DNA from: Candidatus Altimarinota bacterium
GTDB taxonomy: Bacteria > Patescibacteriota > Gracilibacteria > BD1-5 > UBA6164
Reading direction: 5' to 3'
Assembly (NCBI GenBank): GCA_019454605.1
Contig: JACFNZ010000001.1
Coordinates: forward strand, 186,001-250,000
DNA length: 64,000 nt
The notes below the pieces were generated by a model. That model saw only the letters and a list, made by a program, of their open reading frames with translations, was not told the DNA's origin and searched no databases. Of this stretch, positions 57,204 through 64,000 are shown one piece after another; position 1 is the first letter of the stretch, and the number at the start of each line of letters is the position of its first letter. Made by a program: the position numbers and the translations under genes.

Positions 57204-58748
57204 TTATTGTCCTCATAGTTTAGTGGAAGAACAATCCCCTCCTAAGGGATAAACACAAGTTCGATTCTTGTTGGGGATACCATATCATGATAAAAAAATT
57301 TTAGGTAAATTTAATACCATATTTTCCTTTATTTTAAGGGAATAATCACTGTTTAAAAAAAGTTCAACCTTTAATTTTTTTAAAATAGTGATTTTTTTAA
57401 ATATATCTTCATTTTTGCTTATAAAATAGCCATTTCTTAAAAGTTCAACCCATTTTCTGATTAGGGTATTAATATTTTTACTATCATCTATAATACTTGA
57501 TAATTTTTCTTCAAGTATTTTTTTCTGTTTCATATATGAAAGTATCATATTTCTATATGTATCATCATCTATAATTCCTGATATTAATTTCTCTGTTAAA
57601 ACTTTCTTATAATCATCTATCTTTTTCAATTCATCATTTATAAAAAATTTTTCATTTTTTGTTTCATTTTTAGTAAAAAATTCTTTCTTTAATTCTTTTT
57701 CAAATATATTAATATTTTCTATATTAAAATTATAGTTTTCTTTAATATACTCTTCTATTTTTTTAAAAAGTTTATTTTGTGAAATATTTATTTTATTATC
57801 TATATGACTTAAATTTCTATAATAAATATACTTATCTCAATATTTATTTTTTGTTTCATAAGCAAGTAATTTTATACCATCAGCATTATATAAAAGTCAT
57901 TTAAAAGGAGCATTATAATCTATTTTTTTAGTTCTTTTTATTTTTGGAGTAATATTATTAATTTCTTCAAATAATTGGCAAGATATTAATGGCTTATATC
58001 AAGGCATTTTAATTTCTGCTTCTCATAGTTTTCATTTTTGGATTCAAATATAAAATGTATTTTTTAATATTAAATCTATTCAACCAGTATTTTTATTATA
58101 TCAATTACTTTTAAAATAATCTGAAATATCTCTTAAAAAAGCCCCTTCTTTTCTCATTTTAAAGGCATGCCTAACAAGTTCAGCCTCTTTATCTATTATG
58201 ATTATATCTTTTTCTAATCTACCATTTTCATTAAAAAATTGGTGATTTTTATATCAAAAAGGAGCACTCCCCATTAATCTTCATTCCATAAAATATGTCT
58301 CCATCTTTTTTCTTGTATTTGATGACCTCATTTGATTATCAACTTTTGAAATTAAAAAAGAAATTCATAACATTAGAGCACTAAAAATATCTGCTCCATT
58401 AAAAAACTGCCCACTTTCAGCAGCATAAAATCACTTTATATGTGATTTATTTATTAATTCTGTGAAGTGAGCAGCATCAATAGTATTTCTACTAATTCTT
58501 GTTGGGTCATATGCTATAACATAATCATAATTTCATTTTTTACATAAAGATAACATTTGTTTGAATCCAGGTCTTTTTAATTCTTCTTTGGCACTTTTAT
58601 GTTCCTCAATCAAAAAAGTGTCAATATTATTTTTTTCTGCTAATCTTAAACAATATTGCCTTTGTGTTTCAATTGATATTTGTTGTTTATCTTCTCTATC
58701 TGTTGATTTCCTTAAATAAACAATTGCTTTTTGTTTTTTAGTTTCCAT
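57204..58748 (-). CDS. Large serine recombinase 1, reading through tRNA-Arg antisense
   Basis: 514 aa under code 25. The N-terminal resolvase domain has Y-L-R-K-S-T-D-R-E-D with the catalytic Ser (about residue 15), a conserved Arg pair in D-P-T-R-I-S-R-N, and the following E helix. The recombinase domain follows with a zinc-ribbon-like area and a coiled-coil C-terminus. The frame continues past the TGA at 57285-57287 through the antisense of the tRNA-Arg gene to TAA at 57204-57206, adding 27 residues. With a TGA stop it would be 487 aa. As UGA is glycine here, read-through is the default prediction. It catalyses integration and excision at the tRNA site. Confidence 0.88.
57209..57282 (+). 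tRNA. tRNA-Arg(CCT), probable integration site
   Basis: Acceptor GTCCTCA/TGGGGAT with a G-T first pair, anticodon loop CTCCTAA, T-loop TTCGATT and encoded CCA. It is the only tRNA on the plus strand here, and its 3' end abuts the recombinase gene, a classic attachment site. The second copy of the attachment sequence was not found in the window. Confidence 0.92.
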
Positions 58749-58751
58749 AAT

Positions 58752-60242
58752 TTAATTTTTAAAAATATTTAGAAAATCCTCTGATTCAATAGTTATTGTT
58801 TTATCTATTCATACAATAAATTTTATTCATAATCATCTTAATATATTTGCTTTTTCATCTTTTGGAGATTTTTTATATGTTCATGGTAGGTCTTTAAATA
58901 ATTCTAAATAATTATTTATAATATCTTCATAATTAATTTTTGTATTTTCTTTTTCTTTTAATTTTTCTTTTAAGAATACAATATCTTCTTGAAATGATGA
59001 TAATTTATTTATCATAATCTTTTTTAATTCTTCATTATCAAATCTTCAAATCTCAAAGATATTATCATCTATCTTTTTCTCTTTTAATAATATTTCTGAT
59101 TTTATGTATTTAATTTCTGATTTTTGTTCTTCTATTAAAACTGAAATTTTTGATAAAAAACTTTCCTTTAAAATTATTAACATTTCATCTGATAAATTAT
59201 AATTAATTATTTGTTTTTCCATCTCATCAAATAATTTTTGTTCTCATATATTTACCTTATAGTTATAATTTTTAGTTGATTGTCTATAATAGATTTTTCA
59301 AGTTTTATTACTTTTATATGGTTGTAATGCCTTTCAAAATACATCAAAAACCATTTTATCCAAATAATGACTATTTTGATTTTTTGATTTATTAATATTT
59401 GAAGTTCAGTGTTTCCTTTTATTTAATTTATTATATTCTTGAACTTTATAAAAAGTTTCAGGTCAAACTATTACCTCAAATCAAATATTCTTTATTGCTT
59501 TTTCTTCTCAATTAAATTCAAATATTCAAGTATATATTTGATGTGAAAGAATACCACCTATAAAATCTCAATCTTTATTATATCATTTTTTTATAAATTC
59601 ATCTGCTATTTCTTTAAAAGAGCATCATTTTAATCTCATATTAAATGCTAATCTTACTAAAAGCATTTCTTCTGGAACTATATTAATAACATTTTTTGAG
59701 ATATGTTTATATCAAAATGGAAATCTATGAGGCCATATTCAATTTGATTTATCAAGTTCTTGTCTATCTTTTACTGATTCAGATACTTCACTATTATCTT
59801 TTTTTGCTTGTGCTAAATCTATTTCTAAATTACTTACATTAATTTTACTATTAACATCATAATATCAATTTTTTGTTATTATAGCCTTATGTATCTTTTT
59901 TTCCTTTCCTTCAATAAGTTTTAAAAAAGATATCATATCATCACTATTCCTTGATATTCTACTTGGTTTCCACACAATTACATAATCACATTCATATTTA
60001 TTAATTGCTTCTAACATTTTATTAAATTCTGGCCTTTGCTTTCATCATTGTTTAGCACTCTGGCTTTCATAAATAAATCATTCTGCTGGAATATCACAAA
60101 TATTTCAATCTAATCAAATTACTTCAAGATTATGGTGTTTTTTTAATATTTTAATAACTGCCTTTGTTTGAAGTTCAAAACTTGCTTGTTGTTTATCTTT
60201 TCTATCTGTTGATTTTCTTAAATACACAAAACATGTTTCCAT
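58752..60242 (-). CDS. Large serine recombinase 2
   Basis: 496 aa. Begins M-E-T-C-F-V-Y-L-R-K-S-T-D-R with the catalytic Ser at about 11, then V-W-K-P-S-R-I-S-R-N. The catalytic domain has an insert (Glu/Gly/Tyr-rich, about residues 45-75) not seen in the first recombinase. A recombinase domain and a coiled coil follow. Many TGA codons are sense. It precedes recombinase 1 by 3 bases, so the two are co-expressed. Two paralogous large serine recombinases could form a heteromeric integrase. Confidence 0.9.
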
Positions 60243-62427: not shown

Positions 62428-63258
62428 ATGATTTTAGAGACAAGGTTTAATATAGAAGTATTTAAAATAAATAATTATGCTGATTGATATAAGCATTTTT
62501 TATATTTTTTGATAAAATATTTTTTCAATAGTGAAAATTTTTCTGGAACTATAAAAAAACAAGATTATATAAAAAGATGAATAGAACTCTGATTTGAAAA
62601 AAGATTTTTAGAAAATGTTTATGATAAAGGAAAAAAAGATAATAAATTTTTGAAAATTAATTTTTATAAAAACTGAATTCATATCACTTTAAAAAGTCTT
62701 ATAGATAAAGAACAAGCAAAAAATTTAATTGTTTATATAGAGAATGAACTTTTAGAAAGAATAAAAGATTTGAATGATTTTAGATATTTATGTTATATGA
62801 TAGTGGCTTGTAGACCTTTAAAAACTGAAAATAATTTTAAACAAAGTGAATATTTCTATAAAAGTCCTTCAAGAACTATAAAAAGTATTTGAAGTAATTT
62901 TTGAAATATAGAAAAAGATGTAATGAGTAAAAGACTGAATGAAGCAAAAAAACATTTTCCTGATATTTTTAATATCACTTCAAGATATACAACTTATGAA
63001 TATTATAACAAAAAATACATAATTCAAATTAGCAATTTATATAGCATAAAGCAAGTGATATATAAACTTATAAAAAATAAAGTGAAGCAAAAATCAAAAT
63101 GAAAAGATTTTGAAAAAAGATTCTTTTATGTTGATACAAAATATATTAAAAGCCAAAATCAAGTATTTTGAAATTGGAAAAATGTAAATTGATTTTTGCC
63201 AAGTGAATGGTATGAAATTTTAGGAAAAAAAATAAAAGAGGAAGTTTTTAAATCATAA
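62428..63258 (+). CDS. Element protein of unknown function
   Basis: 276 aa, not recognised. Soluble and basic, with F-L-Y-F-L-I-K-Y-F-F in the N-terminal part, a Cys-containing strand Y-L-C-Y-M-I-V-A-C-R-P-L (about 127-140) and a lysine-rich patch (about 220-230). The basic charge, size and location ahead of a structured intergenic region make a DNA- or RNA-binding role such as replication initiation possible. No motif proves it. Confidence 0.65.
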
Positions 63259-63315
63259 CTTTCTCTTTTATTTGCCACCAATTTGACTTTAAAAATTTTT
63301 TAAATAAGATAAATA

Positions 63316-63448
63316 GGCTTACCAATTTAACTATTGCCCAAAAATGGGCTCCTTATTGTGTGTAAAGATGGAGAAAATAACCTTCCATCTTTAAAAATAT
63401 ACACAATATATTTCAATGTTAAGTGGGTAAGCGGGGTTATTTTCTCCA
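63316..63448 (+). ncRNA. Pseudoknot-capable structured RNA candidate
   Basis: Arms in order: C (63316-63331), a small GCCCA-AAAA-TGGGC hairpin (63336-63349), A (63355-63371), B (63370-63382), A' (63385-63407), C' (63418-63432) and B' (63435-63448). C/C' pair over about 13 of 15 bases. A/A' pair with one A-rich bulge. B/B' are perfectly complementary over 13 bases. B is in the A-loop and B' lies outside C, so a pseudoknot is needed to form all. It fills most of the gene-free stretch 63259-63539. Confidence 0.5.
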
Positions 63449-63484
63449 CTATTTAAATACGAAAAAATAAAAAATTTTCAAGTG

Positions 63485-63520
63485 AATAAGTAGAGATAAA
63501 TATGCTCTGCTTATTTTTTT
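63485..63520 (+). terminator. Terminator after the structured region
   Basis: AATAAGTAGAG stem, 9-base loop, CTCTGCTTATT and T run. It would end a transcript that covers 63316-63448. Confidence 0.65.
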
Positions 63521-63539
63521 ATTGTTTAATTATTTTCAT

Positions 63540-64000
63540 ATGAAAAAGTTTTTTTCATTATTATTAACTATTCTTATAGTTTGAAATATGTTTATATACA
63601 ATACTATAAATGCTGCTGGTATTGCTTTATCTGTTGATTATTCTAATTTTAATTGAGACCAAGAATTAAAAATTTCTTGAAGTATCAATAATAAAATTGA
63701 TAATTTATTATTAAAAAATTTTAGTTGAGATTATTATAATCAATTTAATTTTTTAAAAACTTTAAATACAAAAGTTATTGCTTTGTCAAAAAAAGTTTCT
63801 GTAAAACAAAAACCAATTATGGATGAATTAAAAAATTATTTAAGTATAAAATGAGATTTTATCTATAAAAAAAGTATGGTTGATGATAATGAAAAAATAA
63901 AAGAATTAGATAATACTTTTAAAAAATCATTACAAACAAAATGAATTACAATAAATAAAGTTATTGAAAATATTGATAATATAAATATTATATCTATTTC
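63540..64000 (+). CDS. Secreted protein, partial
   Basis: Runs off the end of the window (153 codons seen). A signal peptide (K-K-F-F-S-L-L-L-T-I-L-I-V-G, cleavage near N-A-A) is followed by an Asn/Lys-rich helical region with possible coiled coil. Not recognised. It lies within the element, after the structured RNA candidate, so could be surface cargo. Confidence 0.65.

Follow-up and report, generated by a model that had tools for sequence, protein, structure and literature searches.

Our results indicate that an RNA pseudoknot in the genome of a Gracilibacteria/SR1-type bacterium belongs to a family of 5′ leaders and, judging from the sequences, this family rather probably acts as a bistable transcription attenuator. 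Its most likely role is that of a cis-acting 5′ leader of accessory, often defence, operons and not of a free-standing antitoxin or an origin, because in seven of seven members a promoter lies at a fixed distance and a terminator stands 0–19 nt before an open reading frame (ORF). Since the copies are found between promoter and terminator, in three cases directly before DNA-methylation genes, the leader is probably an undescribed on/off switch for methylation or defence genes. An earlier note on this DNA had suggested, among other roles, a regulatory RNA; promoter, terminator and covariation speak for that suggestion and narrow it to a cis-acting 5′ leader.

The window, i.e. the whole 64,000-nucleotide stretch of DNA that was analysed, comes from a 1.0 Mb genome that uses translation table 25, in which TGA is read as glycine. 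The RNA is placed between a gene for a 276-aa protein (62428–63258) and an ORF starting at 63540, and all its features are on the plus strand. Helix C has its 5′ strand at 63317–63331 and its 3′ strand (C′) at 63418–63432. Specifically, a 7 bp core (63317–63323, GCTTACC) pairs with 63426–63432 and a 7 bp extension (63325–63331) pairs with 63418–63424; the last bases of C′ can pair with the terminator instead. A small hairpin, GCCCA-AAAA-TGGGC (63336–63349), lies between C and A; it is clear in the window and in the relative from genome G037 and doubtful in the other members. The long hairpin A (63356–63406) is made by 63356–63371 with 63385–63391 and 63398–63406, and its loop carries B (63369–63382, TGGAGAAAATAACC). 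B pairs at 14 of 14 positions with B′ (63435–63448, GGTTATTTTCTCCA), which begins two bases past C′ and can also pair with the terminator instead. Completion of the full B helix (14–20 bp in the family) is incompatible with completion of the top of hairpin A. The interlocked order C-A-B-A′-C′-B′ had been described correctly, arms and coordinates included; the perfect B/B′ pairing is also real, with a length of 14 bp and not the 13 given at first. A further helix enclosing the whole RNA (P0), seen in single folds, is absent from the G031 transcript and was rejected.

The nested helices fold with −49.4 kcal/mol as compared to −26.4 ± 3.9 kcal/mol for shuffled sequences (z = −5.9), and none of 200 shuffles was equally stable. 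Together with covariation in six relatives this agrees with the earlier view that the structure is beyond chance. Topology alone is weak evidence, because a loosely defined motif of this type has an expectation of about 0.4 per strand of 64 kb. A stricter motif scan of 1.4 Mb returned three sites: the window's own, one composed entirely of A/T and one with a length of 11 bp. Since such a topology is by itself not rare in AT-rich DNA, relatives were sought. We regard as decisive the six relatives with compensatory sequence changes, above all those in B.

The family has seven members: the window and six further copies from five code-25 genomes related to the host (G031, G037, G030, G003 and two copies, a and b, in G026). 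The G031 relative came from a DNA search and sits behind a 47% homologue of the 276-aa gene. The G037 relative (DIUG01000068.1, UBA6164) was found with a covariance model of the window alone, and it was the only copy recovered by a DNA pattern scan of genome contigs; such scans of viral contigs gave nothing relevant. The G030 relative was read upstream of the sole homologue of the window's downstream gene (E = 0.0007, filters off). A four-member covariance model (window, G031, G037, G030) led to the two copies in G026 and the one in G003. Two of these three hits are marginal for the model (E 0.09 and 0.2) and were accepted because promoter, B/B′ pairing and terminator are present, none of which is in the model's structure. 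Three- and four-member models added no member when applied to 353 and 337 genomes of the class, and a model search of 379 genomes drawn from the phylum returned the window only. The true number of members should be higher, because the strict filters in those genome scans miss diverged copies. Weak model hits in G059, G017, G015, G051, G021, G001, G175 and G010 were taken as noise.

Pairwise identity of the seven members is mostly 38–66% (73% for the highest pair), so the changes are independent enough to count. In helix C, the small hairpin and A, 95.8% of cells are paired, as against 42–50% when one side is slid, and 26 of the 35 nested pairs change on both sides, which no shuffle out of 500 reached; it is important to note that these values come from six alignable members in an alignment fitted to the structure, which favours the score. 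B was never part of the search models, and its covariation is therefore independent evidence. The B helices are 14, 14, 14, 14, 16, 18 and 20 bp long, with largely different sequences (UGGAGAAAAUAACC, UGGAGAAAGUAACC, GAGGUAAUAAAUCC, GGGUAACUUAGGUU, GGGGGAUAAUAAAUCC, AAAAGGAGGAAAUUAGCU and UAAAAAGGAGGAAACUAGUU), and all of their 110 pairs are standard. Where three members can be aligned base by base, 8 of the 14 B positions have changed on both sides. The check across relatives that the earlier note had proposed thus gives a strong answer, since the nested helices and B both covary. We also considered that B might mimic a Shine-Dalgarno sequence. This idea was dropped: B is not consistently of that kind, and in the whole window the 20 bases upstream of the ATG contain no Shine-Dalgarno-like motif in any of 44 ORFs (at least 150 aa). 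The 3′ end of the 16S rRNA nevertheless retains CTCCTT.

A promoter is found at 63283–63310 (−35 TTGACT, 16 nt, −10 TAAGAT), also by a consensus scan, and the transcript is predicted to start at the first G of helix C (63317), six bases past the −10 element. The spacing is identical in all seven members: TTG-N3, 16 nt, TA-N3-T, 6 nt, then the G of helix C. This pattern has a frequency of about 0.0009 per position, i.e. a chance of about 0.001 per member. The terminator that had been noticed behind the pseudoknot is an intrinsic one (63485–63520), with a hairpin at 63485–63515 (stem 63485–63495 / 63505–63515) that runs into 7 T, the T run reaching to 63520. A terminator hairpin with U-run is present in 7 of 7 members, the last U-run ending 0–19 nt before the ATG; of 74 terminator-like hairpins that precede an ORF, no more than 11 are at a distance of 45 nt or less from it. 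Note that terminators of this AT-rich genome are modest. In the window no sigma-70 promoter-like site was found between the terminator and the ATG at 63540; the downstream genes could have non-sigma-70 promoters of their own. The arrangement is always promoter, leader, terminator and ORF. No leader-peptide ORF is conserved among the members: G026 copy a has no ATG ORF in the leader at all and G003 a single one, which overlaps the gene start. Ribosome-mediated attenuation was rejected on this ground.

In the window the first ORF after the leader (63540–64000, code 25; 469 aa from a TTG at 63522) runs past the end of the stretch and encodes a secreted-type protein, a homologue of which lies behind the G030 leader. 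The first gene is a 134-aa protein in G031 and a 200-aa membrane protein in G037. In G026 copy a and in G003 the first gene encodes an EcoRI-type adenine methyltransferase and the next one a GmrSD_N/HNH restriction enzyme; in G026 copy b the gene of a type III methyltransferase comes before that of a type III restriction subunit. A restriction-modification methyltransferase is thus first in three members out of seven. Starting at the window leader, a co-directional run extends to a probable defence island just past the window, with a PLD/SNF2 helicase and two methyltransferases of type IIG-like character; the helicase of this region (L027 7537–17149; contig 6, ~255.5–265.1 kb) resembles DrmD/BrxH models. 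The G031 leader heads a co-directional run to an oligonucleotide cyclase and type III restriction-modification genes. The leader has been retained before homologous genes in two cases, the window and G030, and G026 and G003 with their EcoRI-type methyltransferase.

The RNA lies in a series of accessory genes, next to which are two large serine recombinases and a tRNA-Arg gene. The recombinase genes (57204–60242) adjoin an intact tRNA-Arg(CCT), and the ORF of the nearer one extends into the tRNA gene on the opposite strand. Attachment-site repeats for this element were searched for and not found, and no second attachment site was seen in ~52 kb downstream of the window. The 276-aa protein has the G031 homologue as its only relative and no Pfam or PADLOC match; searches in viral contigs, genome contigs, phages and plasmids gave no match, and its structure model is uninformative (pLDDT 35). 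By eye it may have two helix-turn-helix regions, and it is possibly a regulator or a replication protein. Its gene stands beside two of the seven members only, the window and G031, and is absent in G037. A ~109-aa protein family (MKK-x-I...YDT; L026 6303–6632, L027 5407–5736, L056 5310–5962) is common to all three integrative elements and a few other relatives.

Strands of the pseudoknot have other partners downstream. In the window C′ and B′ (63426–63450) can pair with the terminator (63489–63515), giving an alternative fold at 63426–63515 with 24 pairs and −23.6 kcal/mol. From C′ to the terminator the window folds with −24.6 kcal/mol when C′/B′ disrupt the terminator versus −16.8 kcal/mol with the terminator intact, and G037 with −25.6 versus −15.6 kcal/mol, in both cases not matched in 500 shuffles. 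In G031 the C′/B′-terminator duplex is reached by 0.2% of shuffles and the net gain is almost nil (−0.2 kcal/mol). By a wide margin, G037 and the window take the first and second rank among the 79 terminator-like hairpins examined. One more terminator with a high score, the third (G031 contig 7 near 10759, minus strand), was set aside as an unrelated double hairpin before a DsbA-like gene. At this locus (L059 near 9759) two successive hairpins have the same stem sequence, possibly another terminator/antiterminator leader unrelated to the pseudoknot family. The other subgroup consists of G030, both G026 copies and G003. Here C′ finds its partner in a segment that follows B′, and strand C matches the base of the terminator's 5′ arm, which at most 0.1% of shuffles do equally well; what is left of the terminator then has 0 to −1.8 kcal/mol. 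Neither the window nor G031 shows this pairing of C with the terminator base, and the wiring therefore differs between members. A downstream partner of C′ exists in all seven, equalled by at most 0.6% of shuffles. By computation the alternative pairing and the pseudoknot are mutually exclusive, and both states lie within ~8 kcal/mol before any pseudoknot penalty.

These pairings suggest the following mechanism. A sigma-70-type promoter would start the transcript on the first base of helix C, C would close around the long hairpin A, and loop B would pair over 14–20 bp with B′ to form the pseudoknot. This state is assigned to OFF because it leaves the terminator free to form. If the pseudoknot is not formed, its strands would re-pair downstream, the normal terminator would be lost and the genes would be ON. 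In the window, in G037 and less clearly in G031, the ON route would have C′/B′ paired with the arms and loop of the terminator; in G030, G026 (both copies) and G003, C would pair with the base of the terminator 5′ arm and C′ would take its new partner. The genes would be read only if polymerase passes the terminator, since this ends 0–19 nt before the first ORF. We infer the existence of the transcript, regulated termination and the switch direction. The sign of the switch should be taken with caution, because the window-type alternative hairpin ends next to the same U-run and might itself terminate; in G030 and G026 copy b the hairpin formed by C′ and its partner has U's after it. No unpaired core and no leader peptide is conserved, which makes a metabolite or a translating ribosome a less likely trigger than a trans-acting protein or RNA or the kinetics of folding. 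The switch would serve to control the expression of horizontally acquired operons, most of them for defence or restriction-modification.

A free-standing structured small RNA of ~200 nt acting in trans, with the terminator as its 3′ end and the next gene having its own start signals, seems unlikely to us. Every member does have its own promoter and terminator, and the downstream genes are not all related, as loose adjacency would give. However, the 0–19 nt from U-run to ATG are too short for an ordinary promoter in all seven members, the match of C, C′ and B′ to the terminator is left unexplained, trans targets of B and B′ in the elements are matched only at chance level, and leaders stay with homologous downstream genes. 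Quite improbable is processive antitermination in cis as with HK022 put or the Bacillus EAR element, in which the folded leader would modify polymerase for reading through the adjacent and later terminators. It would fit a pseudoknot at the 5′ end of long co-directional runs, directly before a terminator, but there is little sequence conservation where polymerase would need to bind, and the pairings that compete with the terminator would be superfluous. That the pseudoknot is the aptamer of a metabolite-binding riboswitch is very improbable in our view. Pseudoknot, terminator and competing pairings do make up the anatomy of a riboswitch; against this, the leader alignment has no conserved unpaired core, the downstream genes are not metabolic, and Rfam gave no gathering-level match at the site or in the six relatives (riboswitch, T-box, HDV-like ribozyme, tmRNA, 6S RNA), the best sub-threshold hits being eukaryotic miRNAs. 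The roles of RNA antitoxin (type III) and of single-strand or replication origin of the mobile element, both offered in the earlier note, are hardly credible in spite of the pseudoknot, the serine recombinases and the possible helix-turn-helix domains of the 276-aa neighbour: there is no tandem repeat array and no toxin homologue, the genes downstream being methyltransferases, a secreted protein, a membrane protein and unrelated proteins, five of seven members (G037 among them) lack the neighbour so that no fixed association with a Rep gene or relaxase is seen, and the RNA precedes unrelated operons, twice in G026, always with promoter and terminator kept at fixed distances.

How restriction-modification and defence genes are restrained after transfer is an open question, and the answers known to us are proteins and antisense RNAs. 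A bistable attenuator leader before methyltransferase or defence operons would, if true, add a new kind of restraint. Moreover, a riboregulator would then be defined for bacteria of the code-25 candidate phyla, where this is rare and genetic handling is hard. As a design for a switch, the long kissing helix with its freely varying sequence is unusual. As a tentative idea, this could be the first class of RNA leaders dedicated to anti-phage operons, in which the bistable pseudoknot/antiterminator switch keeps restriction-modification and other defence genes silent until it is flipped by a signal from the cell or a phage, or by establishment in a new host. The leader parts are short enough for tests in E. 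coli or in vitro.

Passages of two reviews on restriction-modification control describe C proteins, autorepression by the methyltransferase, antisense RNA in EcoRI and Eco29kI, and hairpins at the translation start; the same passages make no mention of a riboswitch, a leader attenuator or control of transcription termination (PMC3874152, PMC12707154). Like the known regulation, the leader would keep restriction-modification expression under control. A full-text search for attenuator leaders combined with restriction-modification gave nothing relevant within its open-access scope, which is not proof of novelty.

In riboswitches of the transcriptional type (preQ1-I, ZTP and fluoride), a pseudoknot and an antiterminator compete for one strand before an intrinsic terminator. 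The leader resembles them in this competition. It differs in that its pseudoknot is a 14–20 bp helix of nearly free sequence formed in a hairpin loop, and it has neither a conserved ligand core nor an Rfam match. In trp-type attenuators pairing of regions 1:2 permits the terminator and pairing of 2:3 blocks it. The three-way pairing logic is the same here, whereas the leader has no conserved peptide and a pseudoknot replaces the simple hairpin. In the antisense-controlled attenuators of pT181 and pIP501, the leader can adopt two folds that exclude each other, and a terminator precedes the gene. Our leader shares both features, but its competing strands, B and C, are in cis and the gene behind it is not rep; inspection by eye revealed no antisense RNA that has a terminator of its own. 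HK022 put RNA and the Bacillus EAR element are structured cis RNAs at or in long operons that affect termination. The leader would likewise be a structured cis RNA at long operons; unlike them, it is hardly conserved in sequence, and its pairings compete with the adjacent terminator.
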